From NCBI GenBank assembly GCA_900074885.1, contig FJUW01000041.1:332555-396554 (forward strand): a stretch of 64,000 nucleotides of DNA, given 5' to 3'. The translations under genes and the position numbers were made by a program. The notes beneath the pieces were generated by a model. That model was not told the origin of the DNA. It was given only the letters and a program-made list of their open reading frames with translations, and searched no databases. The DNA is from Rhynchosporium graminicola (lineage: Eukaryota; Ascomycota; Leotiomycetes; Helotiales; Ploettnerulaceae). Positions 31,491-64,000 of the stretch are shown here, piece by piece (the first letter of the stretch is position 1; each line of letters begins with the position of its first letter).

Positions 31491-32062
31491 TTATAATATA
31501 GACGAGCTTTGATACTATATACTTTATATTCGCCTTATAATATTAGAATTAACTTATTCCTAATATTCTTAATTAAATAAAGGAGGATCTGCTTTCGAGC
31601 AGTAGATAATTATAACGTTCCTGGTTCTGACTAGTACGCGGTATATAGGCTCGTCAGTTAGTATTAGCTATAAAGTAAAATAAATAAGAAGTTCGGTTCT
31701 TAATTAGAATTAAGATATTATAAGCAGGTATTAATTACTATATGAATTTGAGTACGAAGCTCTTATCTAATAGCAGAAGTGCTAGTCTTATATAGAGCCT
31801 TCGTTCCCTTATGCTAGCTATATAAGACCGTCTTGCAGAGTGTGTAAGCTCTCGCGACTTATCTAGTAGTCTAGTATATTACGTGATCCCGGATTACCTA
31901 TAGCTATAATACTATTATTACTGCAATATAAGTAGGCGTATAATACTACTTACTAGTTTATACTATAACTGTATTAGTGCCTTTCCTCTAATAGTACTAA
32001 CTCCTTCTAGTACTAAAACTCGTCTGGTATATACTACTAGGTAGTACTATTAGTATTCTAGT

Positions 32063-32330
32063 TATAACGACAGCTCACCTGAATATCACATGAGAAGAAG
32101 GATAGATAATAGGGCCTAAGTTCATAAGTATCCCGGCAGAACTAGTATCCGACCCGGTATAGTATCAGACTAGTACTAGTATATATATATAAGGTACTTT
32201 ATACCTTATCTCTCTTCTTCTTCCTTCCTTATCTTTTTGTTTTCTTTATAGTAGACTATATAAGATCGCTCTTAGCTTCCCTACTTATTTATTCTTACTT
32301 ATATACTGCTTTAAGTCTTATATTATTATA
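32063..32330 (+). repeat. 5' LTR of copy A
   Basis: 268 bp, beginning TATAACGACAGC (TGTAACGACAGC before RIP) and ending TATTATTATA. Matches the LTRs at 39572, 47524, 52989 and 60498. Confidence 0.9.
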
Positions 32331-34149
32331 TTAAACAAAAAGATTAAGATAGCCGGAGATAGCTTACTATAATATCTTATTACTAAGTTAGTTATTCGAT
32401 AATTACTCGTATATAGCCGAGATACTAGAGATCTCTTAGATAACTATGAATTAGGGTTTAATTTAGCTTATCGTAAATAGTATAATAGAGGAAGTCTTTA
32501 CTAACGCTCTTTTACTAACTTTCTTAGTATAAAGGAATTATAGATAGATTTTGAAGAAAGTATAATAAATACCTCGGAACTTTAACCTCTATATATCGCC
32601 GCCGAAATAGTCCTAATATACTCCTTTTTAAGCTATTAGAATAGCTCTTAACTAATAAACTAGAGACCTCTCTAGTTCTAAGGGGACTCGACGCGACTCC
32701 TCCTGCTCTACCTCTAAACCTAATCTATTATACTTTTCCTTACTCTAAATATCTCTTACCTTAGAGAATATTAATACTTTATTAAGGAAGTACTAATCGA
32801 GAGGGAAAGGAAAATAAAAGCGAAATTTATTAGGAGTATAATCGCTAAGTACTCTTACTACTATAAGTAACTCGAATCTGATCTATTCCCTCTTATAATA
32901 ATTAGCGGACTAAGAGGAGAAGAATAACTCTCTAGAAGATACTATAGATAAACTAATCTCTATATAAGATAAGTTCCTTATAAGAGTCCCTCGCTTATCT
33001 TCGACTCTCCTACTAGAACTAATATTATAATCTCTACGTATAGTAGAGATTAATAAGCTAATAAACTCTATTCCGATACGTAGTACCGAGAGAGAGGATA
33101 CTATTCCTAATAAACTATCTCTCTCCCTTAGTGCTGAATCAGTAGAGTTATACCTTAGGAAGTCTTATCTTACTAAGAAGATCCTACTCTTAGATAATAA
33201 GTCGGACTTTACTTTCCTCTAATAGAGAGTATCGATACGAGACTAGCTAGCTATAAATACTAACTATTACTCTATAGACTTCTCCCGGCGCGTTCTCGTA
33301 TAAGAACTAGTTATTAGATTAGCTAAGGAGTATCTTATACCTTAGTACCTTACTAATAAGTTTAAGACTAGTAATAAAATAATCTCCTTACTAGAAGAGA
33401 ACTTCCTTACTAGTTTAGAAGAAGATAACTATTATAATGCTTTCTATTACTTAGAAATATAATAACTTAGTTATATACGCGAGACTTTTATTAAGTTTTA
33501 TAGTCGATTTTAAAGCGCTACTATCTAAAGTAAGGTTAAAAAGAAAGAGTAATTCTTCTATATATAGGATAAGATTATATTATCCTTATATGCTTTAACT
33601 CTTATTATTAAACTAATATAAAATAAGAACTATACTTCTATAGTTAGATCTTTACTTTCTTTTAATACTAAATATTACTATAACTTAGAATATACTTATC
33701 CCGAGAAAGCTACTATCCCGGTATAGTACTATAAGCTTACTATTACTACTATAATCTCTACTAGTTCTACTTCTTACCGGTCCTTAAGCTTAGCCCCTTA
33801 ATAAATTACTCTTATACTATATATACGTACCTTTATCCCGGTATAGTCTAGTACTCCCTTTATACTAAAACGCTTTACTACCTCGACCGGAGAACCTCTT
33901 AGGTATTATAGTTATAGATAGCTTAGTTATATTAAGCTAGACTATCTTAACTCGCCTAAAGTTTAATTAATCGATGAATTTCCGGAAGAGGATTAAGTAA
34001 CTAAGAAAGTAGTAGAAGATATACCCTTCGAATCTGGACTAATACTAGAGGGAAATAATAAGGCCTAAGTAAAAACTCCTTCTTAAGTCTACGTAAGTAT
34101 AATCTCTCTAATCTAGACTTTAACTCTCTAATAGGAAGTAAGTAATTTA

Positions 34150-37100
34150 TATACCCGATTATAATTAGTATAAACGGGCTAGGAGTCTTTATAAGTAGCT
34201 TAATCGATACTAGAGCGAATAGTTATCTATTTATTAATTATACTCTTACCGGATAACTATTAGAGGCCCTTAGTATCAAAATCGAGCTACTATCTTATTC
34301 TATTCTAATACGTAGGTTCTAATAGTCTATTAGAACTTATATTACCTATTTTATATATTTATACTTTTCTATTAATAGTAAGCGTATTTATAATTACTCT
34401 TTTATTCTTCTTAATTTAGAATAATAAGATATAATTATTAGTATTAAATAGATATAACGATTTTAGGTTAAGCTAGATACGCTCTACTATAAGCTTTTAT
34501 AGCCGGAACGCTATCTAGCTACTCTCTAATATAATAAGAAGATAATTATAACTCTATTACCTTATAAACCTAGTATTAATCGATCTTACTAAATCGATAC
34601 TAACGCGCGGAACTTAGCTATAAACTAGCTAGACTAATAGCGATTATACTAAATAGTAGCGAAATAGGATATTAATATATTATCCTTATTATTTAACTTA
34701 TTTTCGCTTATCACTAAGGAATCCGAACCCTTTCCCGCTCCGAATTCATCGAGAAAGGTACTTACGCTAAAACTCTATTATAAGTACTCCTTTTAACCTC
34801 TAAGGATTTAGAGACTAGTTCTGATTTACTAAATTAGTACTATAGCTTTTTACTTTAATATGAAATGTAAAAGCTCTAAATTATTCTTTATTAGTATTTA
34901 TAAGATAAACTATCTCTTATAAGACTATCTAAATAGTAATTCTCCTAAGGATCCTGATACTAAACGACTTATAGCTAGAAAGCTACCGGAATAGTACTAT
35001 ACCTTTAAAGAAGCCTTTTCTAAGCGGGATTCTAATATTCTTCTATTATATCGCTTATACGATTATAAAATTATTCTAGAAGAATTATTACTTAATATAT
35101 ATTTACTCTTATATTAGTAATCTATAGATAAACTATAAGTAACTAAGAAGTACCTTATAGAGAACTTAGATAAGGGATTTATTAAATCTAGCTAAAGTCC
35201 CTCTATATTACTTATACTATTTATTAAGAAGGCTAATAGAGGATTACGCTTTTATATCAATTATTATAAGCTTAATACGATCACTCGAAAGGATTCCTAC
35301 TTAATACTTAGGATCGATAAGCTCTTAACTTATATATCTAAAGTAGTAATCTTTACTAAACTAGATATCCGAGTAGTATTTAACTATATCTATATAAACT
35401 CTGAATCCGAGGAGTATACTACTTTCCGAACCCGCTTCGGATCTTATAAATATAAAGTATTACTTTTTAAGCTCTATAATAGACCTAGTATATACTAGTG
35501 ATATATAAATAATATACTATTAAATTACTTAGATAATTTCTATATAGCTTACTTAGATAATATTCTTATATACTTAGAAACGCTCTAGGAATATAAGAAA
35601 TATATTAAATTAGTATTATAACGCTTAGTAGATACTAGACTCTAAGTAGATATTAAGAAAAGCAAATTCTATATTACTTAGACTAAATACCTTAGATATA
35701 TTATTACTACTAACGGAATCGAGCCAGATCTTGAGAAAGTAGTACTATTAGTAAACTAGAAGTACCCCGAAACAGTAATAGCTATAAAATCTTTCTTAGG
35801 ATTCTATAAGTTCTACTATTAATTTATTCGGAATTTCGGCCTTATCGCTAAACCTCTCTTAGTGCTTACTCAGCCTATAGTACTATAGAATTTCACTAAT
35901 AATTATAAGAAGTCCTTCGACGATTTATATTAATAGCTACTATTAGTATAGAAACTATATTATTTTAACTCTAAATTATAAATTAAACTAGAAACTAATA
36001 CTTTTAATAATATAATAGCTAGAGTTATCTTCTAATTATATAAAGATAACTAGTAGTATTTAATTAGATTCTACTCTTATATTCTTAGTAAATATAAACT
36101 AAACTAGGAGATCTATAATAAGGAGCTATACGCTATTATTAAGTCTTTCCGGAAATAGAAACTAGAACTTATATCTTTATAATAATATACTAGCGTATAT
36201 ATAGACTATTAATCCCTAGAATACTTTATAACTACTAAGGTCATAACTAGTAAGTAAGCTAGATAGATAGAATTCCTTTCTAAATTTAACTTTTAAATTA
36301 TATATATACTTAGTAAAGATAACGCTAAAGCTAATATCCTTAGCTATAGGGAATAAGATCTAAAGATATAAGAATAATAGAAATAAGATAATAGATCTTA
36401 GGTTTTATTACCTCTAGATTACTTAGACCTTAGGATTAACGCGGAACTAGCTAAGTATTATATCAATTAAATTAGTTATATATACTTAATATCGCTAAGG
36501 ATTAATATACTACCGGAACTTATGTATAACTCCTTTGATTTAATTAAGAAACTATACTAATTTAATTAAGAATTATTCTCTAAGGAATAAAATATATTAA
36601 GAGATAGCTATACTATTAATAATAGTTTACTACTTTATAATAGTTATCTATACGTATAACGCTATACCCTACTATATACTCGTTTAATTAGCGAAATCTA
36701 CGATTAAGTTTCCTCTACTTATCTAAACGCTCGTAAGACTACTAAAATAATTTCTACTTATTACTACTAGAAAGGACTTATATTAGATATAAAATAGTAT
36801 ACTTATAATTACTACTTTTACTAGTACTCTTATTTGAAATAGATAAAATAGTAAGGATTCCTCTACTTATTACTAGTGCTTAGCTACTCTATATAGTATT
36901 TAGCTATAGATTTTAAGGACTTCTCGCTTAATAACTAAGGATTTAATAGGATATTAGTATTTGTTAACTACTTAAGGAAAGACTCCGTATTAATACTATA
37001 CTATCGTAATATCGATACCTATAGGATAGCAATATTATTTATTTAATAGATATATCGTTTCGGATATATACCTAAGTTAATTATATCTAACTAAGGAGCT

Positions 37101-37960
37101 TAGCTAGTCTTATCCTTCTAGTAAGAGTTTTACTATATAATTAGAGTTAAGGTTAAGCTCTTTACCTCTTTCTACTAGTAAACTAATAGATAAATAGAGA
37201 TTATAAACTAGTATATTAACTAACGCCTTAGACCTTTCGTTAATTACTACTAGAGTAACTAAGGCGAACTACTATTAATAATAAACTACGCTTAAGTAAC
37301 TTTACTTTATAATTCTATCAGTATAGCGCTATATACTCTTAAATATAGTATACTACTGCGGAATAGCTAGGATTAGAAGTAACTTATAGTATTAATACTA
37401 TAAGAGAAGCTTAATTATACTAATACTAAATCCTTAGCTAAATATACTAAATCTGCTATTAAGGTTATAAAAGCTAATATACTAGCTACTTAGTAGAGGA
37501 TAAGCGCTATAACTAACCTGAAACGATATAATATTAACTAAGAAGTTAAAGATAAGGTATTTCTCTTTATAAGGAACCTTAAGAATTACTAGCTAAGTAA
37601 GAAGCTATCTAGCCTCTAGGTAGGACTATACTAGGTCCTAGCTAAGATCGGATACTCTTATAAGCTAGATTTACTCCTAGGATCCTCTATATATAATATA
37701 TTTACTCTTAAATTACTTTTTAAGGACTCGGACGACTTATTATTAAGCTAGGAGTTACTAAACCTACTCCCGGAGGTTATTACTACTTAAGAAGAGTAAG
37801 AGTTATAAGATATACTTACTATATAGCTCCTAAGAGGTAATCTGAAGTATTAGGTTAGTTAGCTAAGTTATAACTCGGACTTAACTTAGTATAATACTTC
37901 CGATCTAATAAGTACTCCTTATAAGCTTAGAGACTTCTATACTATTAACTTAAGTAAACC
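34150..37960 (+). pseudogene. RIP-killed gypsy pol relic (PR-RT-RH-IN-chromodomain) of copy A
   Basis: Plus-strand remnants in order. The aspartic protease motif reads LIDTRAN near 34205. Reverse transcriptase shows FTKLDIR at about 35351-35371, YTTFRTRFGSYKYKV, and YLDN (YLDD before RIP) at about 35551. RNase H and integrase remnants follow. A chromodomain-like end lies at about 37790-37960. Most stops are TAA or TAG where Gln or Trp is expected. Confidence 0.8.
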
Positions 37961-38115
37961 TAGACTTCTACGTAAACTAGATTAATAGATTAAGGCTTAA
38001 GAAGACGGGATAGATAACTATAGTTACTTAGAAGATAATAAGTTATTATAGTTATTAATATTAAAATTTATTATAAAGGATAATTCCCTGATTATACTTT
38101 ATAATAATACTATAT

Positions 38116-39013
38116 CTAAAACTCTACTTCCTCTATTACTTCTACTTCTCTAGCTTTCTCTCTTAAGTTCTCCGGAACTTCTAGTAAATCTAGAATATTT
38201 AGAACTAGAACTACTATATCTAACTCCTTACTTAAATCTACTAATATAGCCTTAGTAATAGACTAAGTATAATAGCTAATCTTATAAGGTTTCTTCTTTA
38301 GAGAAAGTCCGAGAGTATCTAGATCTAATACTATCTCTGAACTAGAAAGTAAATTCCTCTTTCCTTTAGTATTAGATATCGTAGCTTTAAATATAGCTTT
38401 CTTCGTAAATTCCTATATAATACTATTTAACTCTTTTATCTACTTTAATACCATTTATATTATTAACTTAGATTTCGCTAAATCTATTATTAAAAGATCT
38501 AGATCTTATATTATATTAGTATTATACTAATATCTAAGGATTTAAGATCTTAACTTATTACTTTAATAAACTCTAACTCCTTAAATACTTTCTTTATAGA
38601 ACGCTTTAAAGCTTAAGTCTCTACTAATTATATAGTAGTAATCTCTAATATAGTAATAGGAGTAGTAGATTTCGTAAGATAATAGATCCGATTAATCGCC
38701 TTATAAGTAGCTACGATACTACCCCGATTTAGCTCCGTATCTTTAGCTTCGCTACTAAGAAGTAAACTAGATAAAATAGTATACTTTATATTAATATAAT
38801 TAAGTAATTATAACGCGTTAGTATATATAACTATATTCAGGTTTAAGTAACTTATATACTTATAATTGCTCTTTAATACTAAATAATACTTATAAAGTTT
38901 AGAGTTAAGCTTATTAAACGAGTATAAGAGTTCTAAAATAAGAGTATTATTATACTTTATCTTAAGGAAAGCGCGAATATACTATAAGTAATATATATAA
39001 TACGCAACTGAAA
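38116..39013 (-). pseudogene. Antisense ORF relic in the tail of copy A
   Basis: Mirror of the better-read relic in copy B (53815-54712). It lies between the end of pol and the 3' LTR, on the strand opposite to gag-pol. About 300 codons of protein-like, charged sequence are interrupted mostly by TAA/TAG at Gln-like positions. Product family not recognised. Confidence 0.5.
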
Positions 39014-39571
39014 GAGTACTAATAGGAACTAGTAAAAGAACTATAGGAGTTAGTATTATAGATCAATAAAACTCTTATACTATACTTAAGGACTATCCCT
39101 AAAACTAAGATAGGAAACTTACTTATATTAAGAGAAGAGTTAATTAAGTTGATTAATATATAAGATTATAGTAGACTACTATAGTAGTTAGTAATAATAC
39201 TTACTCTAGGAGCTATATTATAGTCTAGGGAGAATAAACTTATAAGTTAAAGTAGTTATCGCAGTTAAAAAGGAAAAGCTCTAATATTAATAAACTTCTT
39301 CTTTTATATACTTTACGCCTTACTTAAACTTAACTCTTATTATAAATAGATAAAGTAAATACTACTTACCGCCTGATTTAGAAGCTATAACTAATATAGT
39401 ACTATTATAGCGATATAACTAGTTAGAACCTAATAAAGAATTTACTACTACTAAAGAGTAACTAGCGCTTATTACGCGAATATTAATATAAATAGTTATA
39501 ATAAAGACTAATTCTAGTATAAACTATAACTTTCCGAGCTTAGGGTTAAGCTCTTCTTAGGGGGAGGGTAA

Positions 39572-39839
39572 TATAATAATAGCTCACTTGAATATTATAT
39601 AAGAAGAAAGATAGATAATAGGGCCTAAGTTCATAGGTATCCCGGCAGAACTAGTATCCGACCCGGTATAGTATCGGACTAGTACTAGTATATATATATA
39701 AGGTGCTTTATACCCTATCTCTCTTCTTCTTCCTTCCTTATCTTTTTGTTTTCTTCGTAGTAGACTATATAAGATCGCTCTTAGCCTCCCTACTCGTTTA
39801 TTCTTGCTTATATACCGCCTTGAGTCTTATGTCGTTATA
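39572..39839 (+). repeat. 3' LTR of copy A
   Basis: 268 bp, ending GTCGTTATA. Differs from the 5' LTR by transitions of the RIP type where compared by eye. Confidence 0.9.
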
Positions 39840-40470
39840 CTAATACTAGGACGGTTTTAGTGCTAACAATTAGGCCGATTTATAATACTATCCCCCTTCT
39901 GTCTTAGTATATCCTTACGCTTAAGTATACTTAAGGAAATATTAATATCTACTTATAGCTATCTCCTTCTTTTATTATACCCCCCGAACGCTTAACTAAA
40001 TAAGTCGATTATATTATACTCAGAAGATAAATAGAATTTAGTAATAAAATTATAATATTATATACTAGATATGAAAAAGCGGAATATAAAGAGTATATAT
40101 CGCCTCGCGACCTTAAATTAACCTAATATAGTTATTACGCCCGATTAAATAAATCCTACGATATTCGTATAAGGAACCGAATACTTATAGCTTCCGAATA
40201 GGAAAGTCTAGATTCCTAAATTAAAAAATTAGAAGATAAGAAAAACTTAGCTATAGCTAAGTTCTATATACGAATTATTAAGTTAAAGAAATAGAAACGT
40301 TTCTTATATAAAAAGCAATAAAAAATAATTATTACTAATCTGAATTCGATAGCTAAGCTCGATACTCTTAAAGCTCTAGAAAAAGAAGAAAAGAAGAAAT
40401 AAGAAAGAGAAAGGGTATTTAATAATACTAAGTTAATAAGCGCGGAACTCTCTAGTTCTAATATTCCTAT

Positions 40471-40713
40471 TGTGACGACTAGTCAGATTGGAGGTTTGGA
40501 GGTTTCCCTCTATTAGTGGAAATACTTACTACTAAGCGAGATTACACGAGTAGAGTTTAGGGGCCCCTTTTCACATATATACTTCCCTTCTCTCTCTACT
40601 TCTTCACTCCTTAGTTATAGATTCTAAGTTAATTCTTACTACTTCATATTCTATATAATATGAGGTCTTACCTATTAAGTAGTAAGTAAGACCTTACTAG
40701 AGTAAGCGTTATA
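40471..40713 (+). repeat. Putative 5' LTR of the host gypsy element
   Basis: Begins TGTGACG and may end GCGTTATA (from GCGTTACA). No partner LTR is in the window, so the right limit is a guess. The first 130 bases keep several CpA/TpG. Confidence 0.5.
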
Positions 40714-42499
40714 TTATCTATAACTCTTTTACTTACGTCTAGGAAGATAGTAAATATCTACTTATACTATATCTCTATACCTAGAGCTACTAAACACAAG
40801 AGACTACGCTATATAGAGAAGGCTTATACTAAGTATAAACTTAAAGAATAGCACCTAAATAGAAGTAACCTAAGTCCGATAAATCGATAACCGGTTCTCT
40901 AACTCCCTCTACTTCTACTTATTCCTCAGCGACTCGTAATACTCGCTATAATCTATCCCTCTCTATAGTAGAGAGTGTTCGCGATAACGCCTTATCCGAG
41001 TTAAGCTCTCTAACTCCTACTATAATCAATGAACTTACCGAGTTACTAAACCTCCCTGATAATACCCCTATATTAATAGTAACTATAAGTAACTTATAGG
41101 AAGACCGCGCTTACTAGCTATAAGAAGTAAAGAAAAGACTCGCGGAGAAGAGATAATCAAATACAGACTTATCTATAAAGCTATATTAGTTATAGAACGA
41201 GTTCCGGGAACTACGCTAGTTAACTGCCTAGCGTTCTATTAAGTCTATATCGTTTAATATATTCAATCGCGTATAATACTACTACACTTAATTAAAGAAG
41301 ATAATACTACTCCTATACCTAATAATCGCTATCGAGAATAATCTACTAAAGGAATATTATTAATATTATACGCTATACGTATTAAGAAGATTCCGAACTT
41401 TCTAAATAAGCTCTCTAATAGAATCGACTACTCTCTAAAACTCTAGGAAGTATAGATACGTAACGCCCTCCGGCGCTACTCTAGCTATTTCCTTAACGAA
41501 GATCACTATAAAGATTAGTTACTTAATTAAACAGAAGGAATAGCTAGAACTTACCTAGAACTCTTATTCTTAGAACTAGAATATAATAAGAAAAGCAATA
41601 TAATCGATTCACTTAATATAATTACTTAACTTATCTCCTTCTTATCGAATCCATATGACTAATAAACTATAAGAGCTAGCTATTTAGCGCTAAGGATAGA
41701 TTATAAGCAGACCTTCTAGACGTTCTACTACGAGTTTCATACGCTAGCTCGTAAAGCTAGTATAAATAATTAATCGACTCTGAAAATAGACCTATAAGAG
41801 AAGCTATCCTTATAGCTTCGGAAATAGCTCTTCTAATAGTATAGAACATTAAGAACACTAGAAGAATACGTTAAAGCTATATAAGCTAAAGATTAAAGTT
41901 AATTTATCGAAAAGACTTACTATTCCGAGTCTTTAGCTAAAGCTAGCGCGACTCGGGAACGCCCTATTAATACCTTCTCCTAGCGCTATATTACTAACTC
42001 TTCTTCTTATTCGTAACTAAGCTTTCCTACTCCCGAGAGTACTAGTACGACCGGTAATCAAACCTCTATAAGTCGTATACTATAGTAAAAGCGAAGCGAT
42101 ACTCCGCGAGCTCTATCGCTAGCGAATACTCCTCGTCACTTCACGCCTACCTCGTACTCACGCTTATCGTTAGCTTAGCCTAATACTCTGTATTATATTA
42201 ACGCGATTAATACTAATAATAACGTTAATAGCGAGCTAGAAGATAATAATAATAAAGATACGTATAGTAATACTCAGGAGTATATTAAACCTCTACTAGT
42301 ACAAGACTACGCCTAAGGAAAGACTCCTTCCTAAGTAATATACGAGATATACGATACCTTAACCTTACGAAGCTTCTTAGTAGTTAATCGTTTATTACGC
42401 GTACTACTCTTACTAAGAATAGACTTTCGTATAAGCTACTCGCACTTCTTAATTCTAGAGCTAATAGATACTATTTTATTAATTATTCTTTTCTTAAAT

Positions 42500-44590
42500 C
42501 TCTTTCCTTCTTTCTAAAACCTTTAATTTACTCTCTACTAAACGTAATCCCTATTAAAGGTTTTAATAGTATTAATAATAGTATAATCAGTCACTATATA
42601 ATACTCAACTTAATAGTAGATCGCCGCGTTCAGGCATTTACCCTCTTTCTTATTACTACTCTCGGAAACTATAGTATTATACTTAGAAGGACCTGGCTTT
42701 CGGAATATCAAGTACTCTTAGATACCTCTAAATAATAGATTATTTAGCTACTATATACTCCTCCTAGTAACGTTTATAGCTCTCCGATCGAAATCAAGGA
42801 CTTACGTAAACACCGTACTTACTAGCGCTATTAATACGACGCTAACGAACAAGATAAACGCCTCGATTAGTTCTAAGAAGCGTACGAGGTATAGCGAAAC
42901 GCAGCTAGCTCTCCTATTAATATTTAAGCAGTTATTAACTCTATATCTATTATTAAATAACTGCTACTAAACGCTCGGAAACGCACTTCTAAAGAGACTT
43001 ATAGCTATAAGAATATCTAAAACTCTCCCCTAGAGAGTATACTATAAGTAATAAACCCTTCTCTATTATTACCGCTTAAGGAGAATCGTTTCCCTAGCGT
43101 TTCTATTACTTCCTATAGATATGCCGAGCCTAAGTCTTTATTATCTGAAGAATAAGAAAAGAGTAGTAGAGATAAGTCTTTATATATCAGAAAAGCTACT
43201 GATACATGCCCGAAGTATATACGATTTAGTAACGTTACTATCTATATCCCACGTGAATCTCTAATTCCGACCTAAATAGAAGTCTCTACGTTAAAAACCT
43301 ATATATAAGATTACGCCTATATAACTCATACGATAGATTAATAGTTAAAACTACTCGTAAGACCGTATTATAAATCAATAGAAGCTAATCTATATACTAA
43401 TATAGCTATAACGCTACTATAGAAGCGCTAATAGTAATAAAGATTACCCCCTCTTGTAGTCCTGCCTCTCCGAGAGCCTCCTACGCTAGAGATTTACATA
43501 ATTAGTAGCTTAGCTTTCTATCTCTTATATAAACGTTAGAAGTCTTCTAACGATAAGATCTTTTCTACTACTCTCCACGAGATAGATAAGCTTCTTAATA
43601 ACCGAATCGCAGATTAGTAACGTAATACTTCTATCGTATCTTTAACTATCGACCTTACGGAACGCTATAAAACCGCTTAGTAATTTACTATTAGCTTAAG
43701 CGAATTAGATTCAGAACTATAGATTCCTCACGAGTATAGCTAGTAGATATATATCTTTTCTAAGGAAGCTAGCGATATTCTCCCTCCTTATCGTTTATAC
43801 GATTACTAGATTAAGCTTAAGGAAAGGGCTGAAAAGAGCTTCAAATACTCTCCCTTATATAAGATATCAGCTAAGGAACTTAAAGTAGTAAAAGCGTATA
43901 TTACTAATAACTTAGCTAAAGGTTTCATTAAACCTTCTTAAGCATTATACGCTATACTTATTCTTTTCGTTAAGAAAGCTAATAGAAATCTATAGTTCTA
44001 TATAGACTTTCATATGCTTAATAACCTTATAAGGAAGGATTAATACCTACTACTATTAATCGACGAAACGCTAGCTAGAATCTCTACCGCTAAGATCTTC
44101 ACTAAACTAGATATTCGCTAAGCTTTCTACCGAATTCGAATAGATCTAGCCTCTAAAGAGTATACGACTTTCCGGACCCGCTATAGAGCATATAAATACA
44201 AGGTACTACTATTCGGTCTTACTAATAGCCCTGCGACGTACTAGCAGTATATAAATAATATCTTATTCGACTACCTAGACGACTTCTATATAGTATATTT
44301 AGATAATATTCTAATCTACTCTAACGACCTACTATAGTATTAATTATACGTACACAAGGTATTATAATAATTATAAGATACTAGATTATAAGCTGACCTT
44401 AAGAAATATAAATTCAATATTACTTGCACTAAATACCTTAGATTTATTATCTCTACTTCTAGAATCGAGATAGACTCTGAAAAGGTTAATATCGTACGAT
44501 CTTAGAACTACCTAACTATAGTTAAGGGCATATAATCGTTCTTAGGTTTTTATAACTTCTACTAGCGATTTATTAAAGACTATAGAATAA
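42500..44590 (+). pseudogene. RIP-killed pol relic of the host gypsy element (first segment)
   Basis: Reverse transcriptase remnants read FTKLDIR, a stop in place of Gln, AFYRI, then YTTFRTRYRAYKYKV, LFGLTNSPATY and YLDN, at about 44095-44320. This is the standard gypsy RT order. The segment ends abruptly at the 1,674-bp insertion. Confidence 0.8.
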
Positions 44591-46264: not shown

Positions 46265-46379
46265 AATAATTATAAAACCTCTTATATAACTCACTAAAAA
46301 CAACGTATTATTTCAGTTCGCTAGAGAGTATAAAGATACCTTTAATTACCTAAAGCACGCTCTCACTTCGGTACTACTC
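46265..46379 (+). pseudogene. RNase H-region fragment of the host gypsy
   Basis: 115 bp between two insertions. The translation FQFAREYKDTF and LKHALTSVLL is the stretch expected between the RT thumb and RNase H of gypsy elements. It continues at 61185 on removal of the insertion. Confidence 0.75.
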
Positions 46380-47791: not shown

Positions 47792-47799
47792 AGATCTAA

Positions 47800-50700: not shown

Positions 50701-52906
50701 TAGCTATTCCCGAATATTATCTATCTAGCTAGGATAATTCCTAGGTTCTATCTAACTAAGAACCCGACTTAACTAGCTAGAGTCTATTAGCGTTATTATT
50801 AAGGAGGCGGCGCTAGCTTCTTATTTATTAGCTAGTTGACTACGCTTATATTTATAGTTACTAAACGTAACTCTCTTAGTTACTTAGTTTACGCTAGGAT
50901 TATAGTTATATAGCTATAACGTTCTTAATACGATATTATATCGTCTGGTAAGTACGATATCGAAGTAAAGCGTTTCTTCGTATCTATTAATAATTATCTT
51001 TATTCCTCTTATTCTTCTACGGACTTATCTATCTAATCTAGCGCCTTTTCTATCTAATAAAGTAAAGTAGTATAGTTTCGGGTTAATAATAGTAGGAATA
51101 TTCTATTTCTCGATAAAAGCCGGGTTTATAAAGCGTCTTATAGCTCCTGAATCGATAAGTGCTTTTATCTTAATATTATTTATTATAACTAGTAAGATTA
51201 ACTAATCGAACTCTCTAGTAGTAATAAGCTCTAAGTATAGTAGTTTTATTATAGAGTAATTATATACTTCTTTAATAATTCTCCTTATTATTTCGTCTAA
51301 CTAAGTCCTAAGGCCGGGTTCATAGGTAATTAAAGTATAAGGTATATAGTAATAGAGATTAACTTACTCTTAAATCAGATCTAGTACTATTCTTTAATAA
51401 GTAGCTAGTTATAATAAGTACTATCTTTTCTGCTAATAACGTTCCTCTTCTGTTTCCTTAGTAATAGCTTAAGTATCTTTAATTTAAAGGAACTGATTTA
51501 ATTATTCGAATTCTTTTAGTTCTAGTTCTCCTTCGAGGTTAGCTACGTAACGATCTAATTATTCCTCGATATCCCTAGTATTAACTTAGAATATAATAGT
51601 AATAGTATCGCGGTAAGTAATAACGTAGTCTATACCCGGGTTAGGTATATTATAAGTTCGGTAATATTCTATAAAATCGGACTTAGTTCTATTATAAACT
51701 TATATTCTTCTTCTATTATTATGATTTCGAAGAGTCTAGTTTTCGTTATTATATAGAAGGTTATTATATAAATAGTTTCTTTTATCTATAATACTCTAGC
51801 TTTCTTAGTCTTTGTCTAGAAGTTTAATTAAGTTCTCTTCGAATCCTTCGCTAGATTTATAAGTTATAAAGTCCTACGAACTCTATTTTGCGCTAGAAGC
51901 TTCTTAGTAATCTAGCTTTCTTTCGGCTAGTCCGAATTCTCTCTTAAGTTTATTCTAGGGTTTTCCTTCTTACTTCTTCTTCTAAGAATAAATATAAGCG
52001 AGGTATCCTAGCTTATTATACGTATAGTATAAGCTCTTCTCTTAACGTTTATCTTTCTTAGATTAGCCCTTAGATTCTCTTTCTACTTTATTTATTTCTA
52101 TCGGATTATAATAGTTATATTTATTATTCGAGTAAGGTTAGAAATTTCCTTAATATTTACTATATTATTATAGAAATTAAGGTTTCCGAAGGTAAGTAGA
52201 TATAAAGTATCCTCCTTTTTCCTTCGCTTATTCTTAGATTCGTTTATCGATAGTAATAGATAATCTGATTAAGTCCTCTAGAGTACCTAGTTTACTAGCC
52301 CTAGAGAGCTTATCCTTAATATAGTTCTTAAGGCCTTAATAGTATTAAGCTCTTAATCTACTATCTATCTAGTCTAACTATATAGAATATTAGTAGAACT
52401 CAGTAGTATATTTATAAATAGATCCTTATTATTGAATTCCGAGCAGGTGCTTCTCGTCTTATTCCTTCTTATTAGGGTCTCCGAAGACTCCTTTAATAGT
52501 ATTAGTAAAGCTTATAAGGGTTCGAAAGATAACTTAGCTTTTTTCAATTATAGTAGTAGAATAAGCCTCAGATAAGTATCGATTAACTAAGTAGTTACTT
52601 AGAGCTAGCTTAATCTAGTAGGCTATAGTATCGCAGAGGAATAAGGCGATCTATAGGACTTTAAGAGAGTCTGCTTCGAACTTGTTCTTATTAAAGGCAA
52701 GGTATATCTAGTACTAGAGGATAAACTATTCTAGTTTATTATAGTTCCTATAATAAGTATTAAGTAAGTTTATATGAAGTAGTATACTCTTATCGACCTT
52801 ATTAACCTTATCCGGCTTATTAATCTAAGAGCTTTCTCCTACGATAGATCTTTCTTTAGTAGCTATTTCGTTCTTACTAATAATACTTTAAGTAAGGTAC
52901 TTAAAG
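47800..52906 (-). pseudogene. RIP-killed gag-pol relic of 496-bp-LTR family copy 2
   Basis: Minus-strand remnants with RT at about 50100-50350 (FGLTN, KFAIYYLDN), RNase H and integrase to the left and gag toward 52900. Stops occur every few codons. CpA/TpG nearly absent. Confidence 0.75.
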
Positions 52907-52988
52907 TACAATATTCCTAGTTCTAACTAATACGCGGTATATAGGCTCGTTAGTTAGTATTAGCTATAAAGTAAAGTAAATAAGAAGT
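52907..52988 (-). repeat. Right LTR of copy 2, first part
   Basis: 82 bp matching 46380-46461, cut by insertion of copy B. The GAAGT at 52984-52988 is one target copy. Confidence 0.85.
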
Positions 52989-53814
52989 TATAACGACATA
53001 AGACTTAAGGCGGTATATAAGTAAGAATAAACGAGTAGGGAGGCTAAGAGCGATCTTATATAGTCTACTACGAAGAAAACAAAAAGATAAGGAAGGAAGA
53101 AGAAGAGAGATAAGGTATAAAGTACCTTATATATATATACTAGTACTAGTCCGATACTATACCGGGTCGGATACTAGTTCTACAGGGATACTTATGAACT
53201 TAGGCCCTATTATCTATCCTTCTTCTTATATGATATTCAGGTGAGCTATCGTTATATTACCCCTCCCTTAAGAAGAGCTTAACTTTAAGCTCGGAAAGTT
53301 ATAGTTTATACTAGAATTAGTCTTTATTATAATTATTTATATTAATATTCGCGTAATAAGCGCTAGTTACTCTTTAGTAGTAGTAAATTCTTTATTAGGT
53401 TCTAACTAGTTATATCGCTATAATAGTACTATATTAGTTATAGCTTCTAAATCAGGCGGTAAGTAGTATTTACTTTATCTGTTTATAGTAGGAGTTAAGT
53501 TTAAGTAAAGCGTAAGATATATAAAGGAAGGAGTTTATTAATATTAGAGCTTTTCCTTTTTAACTATAATAATTACTTTAACTTATAAGTTTATTCTCCC
53601 TAGACTACGATATAGCTCCTAGAGTAAGTATTATTACTAACTACTATAGTAGTCTACTATAATCTTATATATTAATCGACCTAATTAACTCTTCTCTTAA
53701 TATAAGTAAGTTTCCTATCTTAGTTTTAGGGATAGTCCTTAAGTATAGTATAAGAGTTTCACGGATCTATAATACTAACTCCTATAGTGCTTTTACTAGT
53801 TCCTACTAGTACTC

Positions 53815-54712
53815 TTTCAGCGGCGTATTATATATATTACTTATAGTATATTCGCGCTTTCCTTAAGATAAAGTATAATAATACTCTTATTTTAGAACTC
53901 TTATACTCGTTTAATAAGCTTAACTCTAAGCTTTATAAGTATTATTTGGCGTTAAAGAGTAGTTATAAGTATATAAGTTACTTAAACCTAAATATAGTTA
54001 TATATACTAACGCGTTATAGTTACTTAATTATATTAATATAGAGTATACTATTTTATCCGGTTTACTTCCTAGCAGTAAAGCTAAAGATACAGAGCTAAA
54101 TCGGGGCGGTATTATAGCTACCTATAAGGCGATTAATTAGATCTATTATCTTACGAAATCTGCTACTTCTATTACTACGTTAGAGATTACTATTATATAA
54201 TTAGCGGAAACTTAAGCTTTAAAGCGTTCTATAGAGAAAGTATTTAAGGAGTTAGAATTTATTAAAGTAATAAGTTAAGATCTTAAATCCTTAGATACTA
54301 ATACGATACTAATATAATATAAGATCTAGATCTTTTAATAGTAGATTCGGCGAAATCTAAGTTAATAATATAAATAGTATTAAAATAGATAAAAGAGTTA
54401 AATAGTATTATACGGGAATTTATAAAGAAAGCTATATTTAAGACTACGATATCTAATACTAAGGGAAAGAGGAATTTACTTTCTAGTTCAGAGATAGTAT
54501 TAGATCTAGATACTCCTAGACTTTCTCTAAAGAAGAAACCTTATAAGATTAGCTATTATACTTAGTCTATTACTAAGGCTACGTTAGTAGATTTAAGTAA
54601 GGAGTTAGATATAGTAGTTCTAGTTCTAAATATTCTAGATTTACTAGAAGTTCCGGAGAACTTAAGAGAGAAAGCTAGAGAAGTAGAAGTAATAGAGGAA
54701 GTAGAGTTTTAA
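53815..54712 (+). pseudogene. Antisense ORF relic in the tail of copy B
   Basis: On the plus strand (opposite to gag-pol) about 300 codons read as natural protein, in two overlapping frames that switch near 54300. Pieces include YSRAFLKIKYNN, LLYSFNKLNSKLYKYY, SKAKDTELNRGGIIATYKA, KRSIEKVFKELEF, KSKLI, and a Glu/Lys-rich end VPENLREKAREVEVIEEVEF before TAA at 54710. Most interruptions are TAA/TAG where Gln would fit. A short coiled coil is plausible. I do not recognise the family. Confidence 0.55.
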
Positions 54713-54867
54713 ATATAGTATTATTATAAGGCGTAATCAGGGAATTATCCTTAGTAATAAATTTTAATATTAGTAACTATAATAGCTTATTATCTTCTAA
54801 GTAACTATAATTATCTATCCTATCTTCCTAGGCCTTAATCTATTAATCTAGTTTATATAGAGGTCTA

Positions 54868-57800
54868 GGTTTACTTAAGTTAGTAGTATAGAAGTCTCTA
54901 AGCTTATAAAGAGTACTTATTAGATTAGAAGTATTATACTAAGTTAAGTCCGGGTTATAGCTTAGCTAATTAACTTACTACTTCAGATTACCTCTTAGGA
55001 GCTATATAATAAGTATATCTTATAACTCTTACTCTTCTTAAGTAGCGATAACCTCTAGGGGTAAGTTTAGTAACTCCTAGCTTAGTAATAAGTCGTCTAA
55101 GTCCTTAAAGAGTAATTCGGGAGCGAATATATTATATATAGAGGATCCTAGAGGTAAATCTAGCTTATAAGAGTATCTGATCTTAGCTAGGACTTAGTAT
55201 AGTCCTACTTAGAGGCTAGATAGCTTCTTACTTAGCTAGTAATTCTTAAGGTTCCTTATAGAGAGAAATACCTTATCTCTAACTTCTTAGTTAATATTAT
55301 ACTATTTCAGGTTAGTTATAGCGCTTATCCTCTACTAAGTAGCTAGTATATTAGCTTTTATAACCTCGATAGCGGATTTAGTATATTTAGCTAAAGATTT
55401 AGTATTAATATACTTAAGCTTCTCTTATAGTATTAATACTATAAGTTACTTCTAATCTTAGCTATTCTATAGTAATATACTATATTTAAGAGTATATAGC
55501 GCTATATTAATAGAATCATAAAGTAGAGTTACTTAAGCGCGATCTATTATTAGTAGTAGTTCGCTTTAGTTACTCTAGTAATAATTAACAAAAAGTCTAA
55601 AGCATTAGTTAATATACTAATTTATAATCTCCGTTTATCTATTAGTTTACTAATAGAAAGAAGTAAAAAGCTTAACCTTAACTCTAATTATATAATAAAA
55701 CTCTTACTAAAAGGATAAGACTAGCTAAGCTCCTTAATCAGATATAATTAACTTAAGAGTATATCCGAAACGATATATCTATTAGATAAATAATATCGCT
55801 ATCCTATAGGTATTAATATTATAATAGTATAATATCGATACGGAGTCTTTCTATAAGCAGTTAATAAATACTAATATCTTATTAAATCCTTAGTTATCAG
55901 GCGAGAAGTCTTTAAAATCTATAGCTAAGTACTATATAAAGTAATTAAGTACTAGTAATAAGTAGAGGAATCCTTACTATTTCGTCTGTTTCGGATAAGA
56001 GTACTAGTAAGAGCGGTAATTATAAGTATACTATTTTATATCTAATACGAGTCCTTTCTAATAGTAATAAGTAGAAATTATTTCAGTAGTCTTATAAGTG
56101 TTTAAATAAGCAGAGGAAACTTAATCGTAGATTTCGCTAATTAAATAAGTATATAATAAGGTATAGCGTTATATATATAAATAACTATTATAAAGTAATA
56201 AATTATTATTAATAATATAGCTATCTCTTAATATATTTCGTTCCTTAGAGATTAATTCTTAGTTAAATTAGTATAGTTTCTTAATTAAATCAAAGGAATT
56301 ATATATAAGTTCCGGTAGTATATTAATCCTTAGCGATATTAAGTATATATAACTAATTTAATCGATATAATACTTAGCTAGTTCCGCGTTAATCTTAAGG
56401 TCTAAATAATCTAAAGGTAATAAAACTCAAGATCTATTATTCTATTTCTATTATTCTTATATCCTTAAATCTTATTCCTTATAACTAAGGATATTAGCTT
56501 TAGCGTTATCTTTACTAAGCGTATATATAATTTAAAAGTTAAATTCAGAAAGGAATTCTATTTATCTAGCTTATTTACTAGTTAGAACTTTAGTAGTTAT
56601 AAAGTATTCTAAGGATCGATAGTCTATATATATACTAGTATAATATTATAGAGATATAAGTTCTAGTCTCTATTTCCGGAAAGACTTAATAATAATATAT
56701 AACTCCTTATAATAGATCTACTAGTTTAGTTTATATCTATTAAGAATATAAGAGTAGAATCTAATTAGATACTACTAGTTATCTTTATATAATTAGGAGA
56801 TAACTCTAGCTATTATACTATTAGAAGTATTAGTTTCTAGTTTAGTTTATAATTCAGAGTCGAAATAGTATAGTTTCTATACTAATAGTAGCTATTAATA
56901 TAAATCGTTAAAGGACTTCTTATAATCGTTAGTGAAATTCTATAGTACTATAAGCCGAGTAAGTACTCAGAGAGGTTTAGCGATAAGGCCGAAATTCCGA
57001 ATAAATTAATAGTAGAAACTATAGAATCCTAAGAAGGATTTTATAGCTATTACTATTTCGGGGTACTTCTAGTTTATTAATAGTATTACCTTCTCGGGAT
57101 CTAGCTCGATTCTATTAGTAGTAATAATATATCCGAGGTATTTAGTCTAAGTAATATAGAATTCGCTTTTCTTAATATCTACTTAGAGTCTAGTATCTAT
57201 TAAGCGTTATAATACTAATTTAATATATTTCTTATATTCTTAAAGCGTTTCTAAGTATATAAGAATATTATCTAAGTAAGCTATATAGAAATTATCTAAG
57301 TAGTCTAGTAGTATATTATTTATATATCGCTAGTACGTACTAAGTCTATTATAGAGCTTAAAAGGTAATACTTTATATTTATAGGATCTGAAGCAAGTTC
57401 GGAAGATAGTATACTCCTCAGATTCAGAGTCTATATAGATATAGTTAAATACTACTTAGATATCTAGTTTAGTAAAGATTATTACTTTAGATATATAAGT
57501 TAAGAGCTCGTCGATCTTAAGTATTAAATAGGAATTCTTTTAAGTAATTATATTAAGCTTACGATAGTCGATATAGAAGCGTAATCCTCTATTAGCTTTC
57601 TTAATAAATAGTATAAGTAATATAAAGGGACTTTAGCTAGATTTAATAAATCCCTTATCTAAGTTCTCTATAAAGTACTCCTTAGTTACTTATAGTTTAT
57701 CTGTAGATTACTAATATAAGAGTGAATATATATTAAGTAATAGTTCTTCTAGAATAATTTTATAATTATATAAGTAATATAGCAGAAGAATATTAGAATC

Positions 57801-58658
57801 CCGCTTAGAAAAGGCTTCCTTAAGAGTATAGTACTATTCTAGTAGCTTTCTAGCTATAAGTTATTTAGTATTAGGATCCTTAAGAGAATCGCTATTTAGA
57901 TAGTCTTATAAGAGGCAGTTTATCTCGTAGATACTAATAAAGAATAATTCGAAGCTTTTATATTTCATATTAAAATAAAAAGCTATAATACTAATTTAGT
58001 AAATCGGAACTAGTCTCTAGATCCTTAGAGGTTAAGAGGAGCACTTATAGTAAAGTTTCGGCGTAAGTACTTTTCTCGATAAATTCAGAGCGGGAAAAGG
58101 TTCGGATTCCTTAGCGATAAGCGGAAATAAGTTAAATAGTAAAGATAATATATTAATATACTATTTCACTACTATTTAGTATAATCGCTATTAGTCTAGC
58201 TAGTTTATAGCTAAGTTCCGCGCGTTAGTATCGATTTAGTAAGATCGATTAATACTAAGTTTATAAAGTAATAGAGTTATAATTATCTCTTTATTATATC
58301 AGAGAGTAGCTAGATAGCGTTCTAGCTATAGAAGCTTATAGTAGAGCGTATCTAGCTTAACTTGAAATTATCGTATCTATTTAATATTAATAATTATATC
58401 TTGTTATCCTAAATCGAGGAGAATAAAAGAGTAGTTATAAATACGCTTACTATTAATAGAAAAGTAGAAACGTATAAAATAGGTAATATAAGTTCTAATA
58501 AACTATTAGAACTTACGTATTAGAATAGAATAAAGTAGTAGCTCGATTTTAATACTAAGGGCCCTTAATAGTTATCTAGTAAGAGTATAATTAATAAATA
58601 GATAACTATTCGCTCTAGTATTAATTAAGCTACTTATAGAGACTCTTAGCCTATTTAT
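54868..58658 (-). pseudogene. RIP-killed gypsy pol relic of copy B
   Basis: Reverse complement of the region 34170-37960 of copy A, with the same RT, RNase H, integrase and chromodomain-like remnants and the same pattern of stops. Confidence 0.8.
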
Positions 58659-60497
58659 ACTAACTATAGTCGGGTATATAAATTACTTATTTCCTATTAG
58701 GGAGTTAAGGTCTAGATTAGAGAGATTATACTTATATAGACTTAGAAAGGAGTTTTTACTTAGGTCTTATTATTTCCCTCTAGTATTAGTCTAGATTCGG
58801 AGGGTATATCTTCTATTACTTCCTTAGTTACTTAATCCTCTTTCGGAAATTTATTAATTAATTAAACCTTAGGCGAGTTAGAGTAATCTAGCTTAATATA
58901 ACCGAGCTATTTATAACTATAATACCTAGGGAGTTCTCCGGTCGAGGTAGTAAGGCGTTTTAGCGCGAAGAGAGTACTAGACTATACTAGGGTAGAGGTA
59001 CGTATATATAGTATAGGAGTAGTTTATCGAGGGGCTAAGCTTAAGGACTAGTAAGGGGTAGAACTAGTAGAGGTCGTAGTAGTAATAGTAAGCTTATAGT
59101 ACTATACTAGAGTAATAGCTTTCTTAGGATAAGTATATTTTAAGTTATAGCGATATTTAGTATTAAAAGAAAATAAGGATCTAACTATAGAAGCGTAATC
59201 CTTATTCTATATTAGTTTAATAATAAGAGTTAAAGCGCGTAAGAATAATATAATCTTATTCTATATATAGAAGAACTACTCTTTCTTTTTAATCTTACCT
59301 TAGATAATAGCGCTTTGAAATCGACTATGAAACTCGGTAAAGGTCTCGCGTATATAGCTAAGTTATTATATTTCTAAGTAATAGAAAGTATTATAATAAT
59401 TATCTTCTTCTAAACTAGTAAAGAAGTTCTCTTCTAGTAAAGAGATTATTTTATTACTAGTCTTAAACTCGTTAGCGAGATACTAAAGCGTAAGATACTT
59501 CTTAGCTAATCTAGTAATTAGTTCCTATACGAGAACGCGCCGGGAGAAATCTATAGAGTAATAGTTAGTATTTATAGCTAGCTAGTCTTATATCGATACT
59601 CTCTATTAGAGGAAAGTAAAGTCCGACCTATTATCTAGGGGCAGGATCTTCTTAGTAAAATAAGACTTCCTAGGGTATAACTCTACTAATTCGGCGCCGG
59701 GGGAAGGAGATAGTTTATTAGGAATAGTATCCTCTCTCTCGATACTATATATCAGAATAGAGTTTATTAGCTTATTAATCTCCGCTATACGCGGAGATTA
59801 TAATATTAGTTCTAATAAGAGAGTCGAAGATAAGTAAGAGACCTTTATAAGGAACTTATCTTATATAGAGATTAGTTTATCTATAGTATCTTTTAGAGAG
59901 TTATTCTTCTCCTCTTAGTCCGCTAATCGTTATAAGAGAGAATAGATCAGGTTCGAGTTACCTATAGTAATAAGAGTACTTAGTAATTATACTCCTAGTG
60001 AATTTCGCTTTTATTTTCCTTTCTCTCTTAGTTAGTACTTCCTTAATAAGGTATTAACGTTCTCTAGGGTAAGAGATATTCAGGGTAAAGAAAGGTATAA
60101 TAGATTAGGTTCGGAGGTAGAGCGAGAGAAGTCGCGTTAAGTCTCCTTAGAACTAGAGAAGTCTCTAGTTTATTAGTTAAGAGCTATTCTAGTAGCTTAA
60201 AAAGGAGTATATTAGAGCTATTTTAGTAGCGATATATAGAAATTAAAGTTCCGAGGTATTTATTATACTTTCTTCAAAATCTATCTATAATTCCTTTATA
60301 CTAAGGGAGTTATTAAAAGAGCGTTAGCGAAGACCTCCTCTATTATACTATTTATAATAAGCTAAATTAAACCCTGATTTATAGTTATCCGAGAGATCTC
60401 TAGTATCTCGGCTATATATAAGTAGTTATCGAATAACTAACTTAGTAGTAAGATATTATAGTAAGCTATCTCTAGCTATCTTAATCTTTTTATTTAA

Positions 60498-60765
60498 TAT
60501 AATAATATAAGACTTAAAGTAGTATATAAGTAAGAATAAATAAGTAAGGAAGCTAAGAGCGATCTTATATAGTCTACTATAAAGAAAATAAAAAGATAAG
60601 GAAAGAAGAAGAAGAGAGATAAGATATAAAGTACCTTATATATATATACTAGTACTAGTCCGATACTATACCGGGTCGGATACTAGTTCTGCCGGGATAC
60701 CTATGAACTTAGGCCCTATTATCTATCCTTCTTCTCATGTGATAATCAGGTGAGCTGTCGTTACA
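60498..60765 (-). repeat. Sense-5' LTR of copy B
   Basis: 268 bp. Its right end GTCGTTACA keeps the original terminal CA, showing that the family LTR starts TGTAACGAC in sense orientation. Confidence 0.9.
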
Positions 60766-61184
60766 GAAGTTCGGTTCTTAATTAGAATTAAGACGTTATA
60801 AGTAGGTATTAATTACTATATGAATTTAAGCACGAAGCTCCTATCTAATAGCAGAAGTACTAGTCTTATATAGAATCTTCGTTCCCTTATACTAGCTATG
60901 CAAGACTGTTTTATAGAGCGCGTAAGCTCTCGCGACCTGTCTAGTAGTCTAGTATATCACGTGATCCTGGATCACCTATAGCTATAATACTATTATTACT
61001 TTAATACAGGTAGATATATAGTACTACTCGCTAGTTTATATTATAACTGTATTAGTGCCTTTCCTCTAATAGTACTAACTCTTTTCTAGTACTAAAACCC
61101 GTCTAGTACTTACTACTAGGTGGTACTATTAGTATTCTGGTGCTAGGACGGTTTTAGTACTAAGAACTATGCTGGTTCGTAATA
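60766..61184 (-). repeat. Right LTR of copy 2, second part
   Basis: Target duplicate GAAGT followed by 414 bp (60771-61184) that complete the 496-bp LTR. It includes the unmutated CTGGT GCTAGG site that matches the target of copy A. Confidence 0.85.
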
Positions 61185-63238
61185 TACTTCTCTACTACTA
61201 TTAGTAAGATCTACCTTATATAATCGAAATAGATACTAGTAATAAGATAATAGTAAGTATATTATCGTAATAGCACGATAAAGACTAGTTCCTAGTAGCT
61301 TACTTCTCTAAGATTATACTACTAGCCGAGCTTAATTACGCTATCTACGATAAGGAAATACTTATAATTATACGATCTTTCAGTAACTAGAGATCTAAAC
61401 TCGCAGGCGCACTATATTAGATCCGTATTATTACTAATTATAAAGCTCTTAAGTACTTCATAACCTCTAAGTAGTTAAACACACGATAAGCATAATAAGT
61501 AAAGCTACTTATAGATTATAAATTTATAATTATCTATCGACTTAGGAAATATAATCTACTCGCTAACGCTCTCTCTCGTAGAACAGATAAATTAGACGAT
61601 TAAAATAACGCTAAGAGAGCCTAACGTTTATAATAACTACTAAACGAAAACCAAATCGATCTAGTACTACTTATAAGTAACCTCCGGAATAGTTCTGACT
61701 CTATAGATAGCTTTGAACTTATTAACGCCTTAGAAGTCGCTAATCTATCGCTAGTTTTCTCTATAGTATAGTAAGTACTCGATGCTAATCGTATTACGCT
61801 ATTACTTCAAGTACTACGAAAATAAGCTCTCTGCGCTACTCCTAGAAAACTAACTATAGAAAAAGATCTTCTACTCTACGAAAAAAGATTAATCGTACCT
61901 AACGTTTTATACTTTCGCATACTACTTATACGCGAAGTATATAACTAATTAGAGACCGCTTATCTAAGTATAAAGAAAACCTTATAACTCCTATTATTAT
62001 AATACTACTAGTACGGAATCGCTTTAACAATTAACTAGTACTACTGCAACTACTATACTTACCGACGAATTCAAGTACTATAAGATAAGAAGCCCGGACT
62101 CCTATAGCTCTTACTAGTGCTATTACGCCTATAGGAGTATATTACAATCGATTACTATAGCTTTAATCGCGATAAATATAGTTATAATAACGTCCTTGTG
62201 TTTATAGATCGTTTTAGTAAATAAGTAATTAGTATTCTATACTAAAAGACCTCTAATACGCGCGACCTTATAAAGCTCTACTTATACTATATATACTACT
62301 ATTTCGGAGCTCTACTAACTATTACGTCTAATAGAGAGCCTTAATTCGTTTCACGCTTTTAGATAGCTATTTATATAATTCTAAGCACTAAAAGATAGCT
62401 TTCTTCGGCAGACTACCCTCAGACAGATAGCTAGACAGAAATTTATAACTAATACCTCTAGCGCTAATTACGACTTTTTATCTCTTATTATTAAGATAAC
62501 TAGTCAGAATTCTTACTTATTATAGACTACGCTCAGATAACCCTCCCTCACGACTCCCTTAGAGGTCTCTTACCCTTCGAGGTAGTATATAGTTACGCTC
62601 CGCGCGTCGACTAGAATTAGAAATCCGATTTACCTAACTTAGCTACTCCTTCTAATAAGCTAAATACTTAATAAGCTATCGAATACGCTAGCCGACTACG
62701 AGCTATATAGACTACCGCCCAATTAAGCCTCCTACGCGTATAAGCTAAGATATCCCGATCTTATAATCACTCACGCTATAAAGTCGACTTTATTATAGAT
62801 AACCTTATTTAGCTAGATATACGCTACTTTATAAGCACTTAACCCAGTAAAAAACTCGACTTCCTAACTAATAGACTCTTCTATATAGTTGAAAAAGTTA
62901 GAAGCTCTTATCATTTAGAGCTCCCTATAAGTATAAAAGTATATAATATCTTCCTTACGTCGAAGTTATATAAGTATACTAATAACTTATTACCTAGATA
63001 AACGTTACTACTACTACTACTAATTAATATCACTAGTAATAATAAATAGGAAATAGAGAACGTACTAGCGTGCTATAAGTAGCGTAATAACCTCTCTTAC
63101 CGCGTCTCCTAGTTAAATTAAGATATCGACCTCACGTAATATAATACTTCAGATATTAAGTATACTCCCGTAAAGCTCTAGTAATTCCACCTCGATAACC
63201 CGATATAAGTAGGTCCCCCTGTAAAGCTCCCTGACTAG
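61185..63238 (+). pseudogene. RNase H and integrase relic of the host gypsy element (last segment)
   Basis: Plus-strand remnants: RNase H to about 61450 (YAIYDKEI), zinc-binding/HHCC-like region around 61900-62050, integrase core around 62200-62430 (TSNREP then FVSRF, and PQTDSQTE). CpA/TpG is less depleted than in copies A and B. Confidence 0.8.
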
Positions 63239-63744
63239 TGTGAAAATTGAAGGTGGAAATCGGCTAAAGGTCAGAATAACAGAATAATAGGTGATCAATT
63301 TGACTTGCTTTTCTTACTTGAAGAGAGCTAACTACAGGAGAGATTCTAGCTACTTATATAGCTATGTGAGCTCTCTAGAATATTCTATACTACGTAATAC
63401 AGAACTCCCTAGAAGAAGACACGTATACTGTAGAATCATACTACGTTAGTAGTACGTCAGTAGAAACCTCTAGAAGTACGATATACGTACTAGAGAGTAG
63501 TAGAACTCTATCGAGAACCTTCATAGTAACTCTAATAGAGTATGCAGGGTATAGGCTATTGATAAGGTACAGGGTGTAGGTGCCAGGTATAATAAGGTAC
63601 ATGCGCAGGGTACTGAACCAGGTACTAAAACCATATACTGACAAGGTACAGGGTGTATATACCAGTGCAGGCAAAACTGACCAAGGTACTGGTTGTATGC
63701 TAATGCAGGCAAAACTGACCAAGGTACTGGTTACAAATCCAACA
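63239..63744 (-). repeat. 3' LTR of the Ty1/copia element
   Basis: 506 bp with only modest CpA loss. It contains a 29-bp direct repeat (63666-63694 and 63704-63732, period 38) and repeated AAGGTACAGGGTGTA words at about 63566 and 63644. Confidence 0.8.
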
Positions 63745-64000
63745 CGCCCTCTTAATCAGAGCCTTATAGTCAGTTTTAAAACAGAACTATATTAAGGTAA
63801 ATCACTAATCGACTACCCTTAGGTTATTACAAAAGAAATATAATAAGGAATGGAAATGCCACCTCGTAGCTACCCTCCTAGGTTAAATAAACCTAATTCT
63901 CTTATAACAATCTGAATTACTAGCTCTAATAAGCTAGTTCAAGGTGTTTTATAAACTCCTTAAATTTAGGCCTATCTAGGGCTTTAGTAAACCCGTCTGC
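63239..64000 (-). mobile_element. Ty1/copia element entering from the right edge
   Basis: In sense (minus) the LTR starts TGTTGG and ends TTTTCACA, plus coordinates 63239-63744 (506 bp). Right of it on minus reads the end of copia pol: ADGFTKALDRPKFKEF (about 63950-64000), the conserved RNase H C-terminus of Ty1/copia elements. An AAGAGGGCG purine tract adjoins the LTR. The rest is outside the window. Confidence 0.85.

Follow-up and report, generated by a model that had tools for sequence, protein, structure and literature searches.

The AT-rich block of the window, the 64,000-nt stretch of Rhynchosporium graminicola DNA analysed here, was almost certainly built by successive retrotransposition of LTR elements into one another, and it carries RIP-type mutation. 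Each insertion duplicated 5 bp of its target, as shown at the five closed ones, and the nesting gives a relative order. Including the outer repeats, this order has up to six layers, from Y through X, copy 1, the host gypsy and copy 2 to B or the solo LTR. One of the insertions would later have been cut down to a solo LTR through recombination between its two LTRs, and the layers would have acquired RIP-type C-to-T mutations, mainly at CpA, by which their reading frames were broken. Integrase and LTR-LTR recombination presumably acted as the agents of these events, and RIP as the mutator.

Elements of the nested block

The window corresponds to positions 332555-396554 of contig C37 in an assembly of 55.3 Mb and 121 contigs. 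Since the contig terminates at the right edge of the window, the right sides of copia, the host gypsy, copy 1, X and Y are absent. Seven LTR elements (copy 1, A, the host gypsy, mini, copy 2, B and copia) and one solo LTR were recognised (Table 1). An earlier note had described the stack as base-exact, which it is, but had counted six elements although its own list contains seven plus the solo LTR. The nest does run from 31611, as was stated there, but this is not its left limit, as Y and X, lying outside copy 1, carry it to about 30496. Two further details were corrected, namely that the LTR of copy 1 measures 495 nt and that both copies of the 496 family lie on the minus strand. The equal LTR lengths reported within families (268/268 twice, 496/82+414 and 168/168) were read in the sequence, and so were all five of the 5-bp target site duplications (TSDs) of the closed insertions.

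Table 1. Positions, strands, LTRs and target site duplications of the repeats in the window
Feature	Position	Strand	LTRs	TSD	Context
Y	30496..31325 (start approximate)	−	30496-30665 (probable; limits by eye)		outermost repeat seen, left part only
X	31326..31610	not assigned			begins TGTGACGGG
496-family copy 1, visible part	31611..40470	−	31611-32062 + 39845-39887 (452+43 = 495 nt; one LTR seen)	ATAAT 31606-31610 (left, candidate)	interrupted by A in its left LTR and by host gypsy in its internal region; visible internal region 39888-40470
A, 268 family, 7777 nt	32063..39839	+	32063-32330; 39572-39839 (268/268)	CTAGT 32058-32062 / CTAAT 39840-39844	in LTR of copy 1
Host gypsy	40471..63238	+		CCTAT 40466-40470 (left, candidate)	own pieces 40471-44590, 46270-46379, 61190-63238; right end beyond contig
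Mini element, 1674 nt	44591..46264	+	44591-44758; 46097-46264 (168/168)	AATAA 44586-44590 / 46265-46269	in host gypsy
496-family copy 2	46380..61184	−	46380-46875 (496); 52907-52988 + 60771-61184 (82+414)	TACTC 46375-46379 / TACTT 61185-61189	in host gypsy
Solo LTR, 268 family, 268 nt	47524..47791	−		AGATC 47519-47523 / 47792-47796	in copy 2
B, 268 family, 7777 nt	52989..60765	−	52989-53256; 60498-60765 (268/268)	GAAGT 52984-52988 / 60766-60770	in right LTR of copy 2
Copia, left part only	63239..64000	−	63239-63744 (506 nt by eye; one LTR seen)	ACTAG 63234-63238 (left, candidate)	in host gypsy

A, B, copy 2 and mini each combine equal direct LTRs, a 5-nt TSD with a matching empty site, and a polypurine tract, the latter being seen by eye as a purine tract just before the right LTR in A and mini and as a pyrimidine tract after the left LTR in B and copy 2. 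Their LTR pairs align without gaps at 91-93 %. The solo LTR is bounded by its TSD and has no internal sequence. The two 496-family copies match each other at 92 % in the left part of the LTR and at 85 % elsewhere. Mini has a longest stop-free stretch of 53 aa, and at positions 45251-45612 a sequence of about 179 nt is duplicated in tandem, its units being 81-83 % alike.

Against our reading of the block stands the weakness of its protein evidence. In a Pfam search of 10 pieces of the stack, seven gave no match and the other three only matches below the cut-off; the host gypsy matched RVP_2 (E 0.065) and SH3_Tf2-1 (E 0.0012) at this level, and piece 35196-35495 of A matched RVT_1 (E 5.1e-4). 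Moreover, no place on the contig of the window appears among the 150 genomic RT places listed. The RT regions of A and the host gypsy are 69 % alike at the DNA level, and copy 2 carries, on the minus strand, the motifs YLDN and FAYN, which we take to belong to RT and integrase, respectively. In the copia part, the LTR is followed by the end of a coding region on the minus strand, where ADGFTKALDRPKFKEF presumably represents the copia RNase H tail (ADGFTKAL..KF..F), although this 24-aa piece had no Pfam match. The class names Ty3/gypsy, for the host gypsy and A/B, and Ty1/copia are putative.

The two outermost layers, Y and X, are inferred from comparison with their other genomic copies. The probable LTR of Y is followed by a pyrimidine tract (a polypurine tract on the minus strand), and the repeat occurs at 39 other genomic places, with 5 extra pieces. 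At 27 of these 39 places the match stops at 31323, though the query extended through X, and all eight Y copies that were fetched continue past the X site with other sequence. X itself was found at 39 other places, all of them ending at 31606 or 31610. Its start falls at 31324-31328 in 35 of the 39, a weak indication given that the query began at 31324, with only 2 nt upstream. Apparently, then, X was inserted into Y and was itself interrupted by copy 1. The last two bases of the X-in-Y site speak against this arrangement, as they read CT in the window, whereas seven of the eight Y copies have TC and the remaining one has TT. Over its initial 35 nt, X is similar to the reverse-complemented end of the Y LTR. 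In one Y copy (L084), a 268-family LTR starts about 10 nt beyond the position of the X insertion, a second insertion at almost the same place.

Empty sites and order of insertion

Each flank of an insertion, together with its TSD, was aligned separately to other copies of the host family. We assumed that if an insertion was real, the placements of its two flanks would overlap by exactly the TSD. For each of the five closed insertions we used 29 loci, these being the best matches other than the window (from scoring 40 out of 364 candidates in one set and 40 out of 1008 in the other), and a locus was skipped when one or both flanks matched at less than 70 %. The overlap was exactly 5 nt in 135 of the 145 tests, while 8 tests were skipped and 2 gave placements elsewhere. 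Such an overlap was found in 28 of 29 loci for A and likewise for B, and in all usable loci for the solo LTR (24/24, 5 skipped), mini (28/28, 1 skipped) and copy 2 in the host gypsy (27/27, 2 skipped); one of the skipped loci, L044, likewise gave an overlap of 5. The exception for A (L024) has an extra partial LTR listed alongside, and in the exception for B (L016) the left piece, 82 nt long, aligned to a similar sequence at another position of that locus. The excision check proposed in the earlier note was run by separate placement of flanks, without removal of the inserts, and had the outcome it foresaw: at all five closed insertions the flanks abut with a single 5-nt target copy.

As a control, random breakpoints with 150-nt flanks were placed at 47050-47350 and 43900-44300, both stretches being free of interruptions. 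All 110 usable tests (120 run, 10 skipped) gave an overlap of 0, and a chance or mechanical cause of the 5-nt overlaps was rejected. Two 5-mers drawn at random from this region are identical with a frequency of 0.0035, and differ by no more than one transition with a frequency of 0.0119. Matches starting at query base 1 were considered as proof of element starts and rejected, since the queries began exactly there; the junction data were used instead. An assembly artefact, with collapsed or misjoined repeat copies making up part of the stack, is very improbable: the contig does stop inside the stack, as assemblies often do in repeats, but a misjoin would produce neither the in-register 5-nt target duplications present at all five closed insertions nor the equally long LTR pairs that surround them.

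The order of events proposed in the earlier note agrees with these results. The empty sites of mini and copy 2 place the host gypsy before both, and those of the solo LTR and B place copy 2 before these two; that copy 1 preceded A is supported as well. In both of the other copies fetched, the host gypsy likewise begins at 40471 and has unrelated flanks, as expected if copy 1 was there first. Copia was found to be a dispersed repeat with 39 other places in the genome, and ten of ten fetched copies of the host gypsy lack it, running straight past its site and diverging from the window at 63239 (left side only), which places copia after the host gypsy. Because the contig ends, the copia step and the insertion of the host gypsy into copy 1 rest on one junction each.

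RIP-type mutation and the state of the solo LTR

Base composition changes along the window, and the nested block carries saturating RIP-type C-to-T change. In 2-kb steps, GC is 0.44-0.49 over bases 1-30000 and 0.25-0.37 from 30001 on; in 500-base steps from 30501 onward, TA/AT is 1.3-2.2 and (CA+TG)/(AC+GT) is 0.0-0.74, mainly below 0.4. Low GC and TA/AT and CpA-type indices of this kind are the RIP signature of filamentous ascomycetes. Bases 1-30000 are of ordinary composition, with the boundary at about 30000.

A and B, at 7777 nt each, align without gaps and are 91.8 % identical. Their 637 differences consist of 617 transitions and 20 transversions. CpA and TpG together number 7 per kb in the internal regions of A and B (32331-39571 and 53257-60497), as against 135 per kb in bases 1-29500; the values are 10 for the internal region of copy 2, 23 for the two long host gypsy pieces, 89 for the copia part (LTR plus 256 nt) and 93 for the solo LTR. 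Divergence dominated by transitions is thus joined to depletion of CpA, as is typical of RIP. The contexts of the transitions nevertheless speak against a simple form of RIP, since over the whole elements just 61 of the 617 lie at CpA, compared with 256 at CpT, 248 at CpG and 52 at CpC, and this also counts against our main reading. The bias towards CpT and CpG suggests that these are secondary RIP contexts, used after CpA had been exhausted. RIP acts in the sexual cycle and requires a RID-type methyltransferase.

Between the members of the four LTR pairs, 97 of the 99 differences are transitions. As nearly all LTR differences are thus RIP-type, LTR divergence is a poor clock, and dating of the insertions by this means was rejected.

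Among the five 268-family LTRs of the window, the solo LTR carries the least mutation, far less than the LTRs of A and B, as it holds the C state at most transition sites (solo to other, 33:1 for A5, 27:3 for A3, 35:1 for B5 and 26:1 for B3). Its CA+TG count is 25, versus 7-17 in six 268-family element LTRs of other loci, one of them belonging to B. The 168 family also supplies a lone LTR (L022, 1147-1314), flanked on both sides by AAATC, with a count of 21, versus 13 and 8 in two element LTRs. This comparison took hits complete to within 6 nt, a filter that removed some LTRs, including both of A and the left one of mini. Two 496-family LTRs that had been labelled lone, without a TSD, proved not to be so, as internal sequence lies downstream of them.

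The solo LTR may be less mutated simply because it is young, without any sparing of short lone LTRs by RIP. We regard this as plausible, with the odds leaning a little the other way. It belongs to the innermost of the layers seen, and the copia part, which likewise entered the host gypsy late, keeps 89 CpA+TpG per kb. Youth, however, does not readily account for the second lone LTR, that of the 168 family, which is also less depleted, though the sample comprises two lone LTRs. Nor does it fit Podospora, where solo LTRs of the element crapaud are reported to show the same pattern and to be spared by RIP (PMC10787394): there, full copies have LTRs with a strong AT-mutated class, and most solo or fragment LTRs are without it. 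That work concerns another genus and family, and the present case consists of one solo LTR at a known position in a nest and one lone LTR elsewhere.

Sparing of the lone LTR is a possibility that we consider rather unlikely. On this reading the nest would be a fossil record of RIP stopping at element edges: the lone 268-nt LTR would have stayed almost free of mutation during the saturation of the copy-2 DNA to its left and right, being too short a duplication for RIP to recognise. Its internal region would then have to have disappeared ahead of the next sexual cycle. The 268 family has 450 LTR/internal junctions genome-wide by an exact degenerate pattern, an abundance that also favours the main reading of the block; 100 of these 5' LTR/internal junctions were listed. 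On the fully listed contigs (C19, C24, C27, C28 and, twice, C33), none of six low-RIP LTRs was a 5' LTR by the junction pattern. One of them (C27:9343), however, is consistent with being the 3' LTR of a complete element, which among these six hits argues against low-RIP LTRs all being lone; the two on C33 gave no clear assignment.

Comparison with nests in other ascomycetes

The closest parallel is Mycosphaerella graminicola (Zymoseptoria tritici). This fungus is reported (PMC4522978) to have 78 nested LTR clusters of 7.5-63 kb with 2-7 different elements each, where TSDs are mostly 4-5 bp long and verified, GC is low and transitions are biased towards CpA. The window shares with these clusters the insertion of LTR elements into LTR elements, short TSDs, low GC and RIP-like change. 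Its seven LTR elements and solo LTR occupy about 33 kb, outside of which lie the two further repeats; with up to six layers, it is deeper than the M. graminicola clusters given in Table 4 of that report (35 of the 78), in which the deepest bracket has a base and three levels.

The nested stack is ordinary biology, well resolved, as nested clusters with RIP-like change and solo LTRs spared by RIP have both been described in other ascomycetes, and it alters no known principle. What it offers is an unusually clean relative chronology that can be checked, covering several retrotransposon families of a genome subject to RIP-type mutation. If lone LTRs generally keep their pre-RIP state, they would be a better source for the history of these families.
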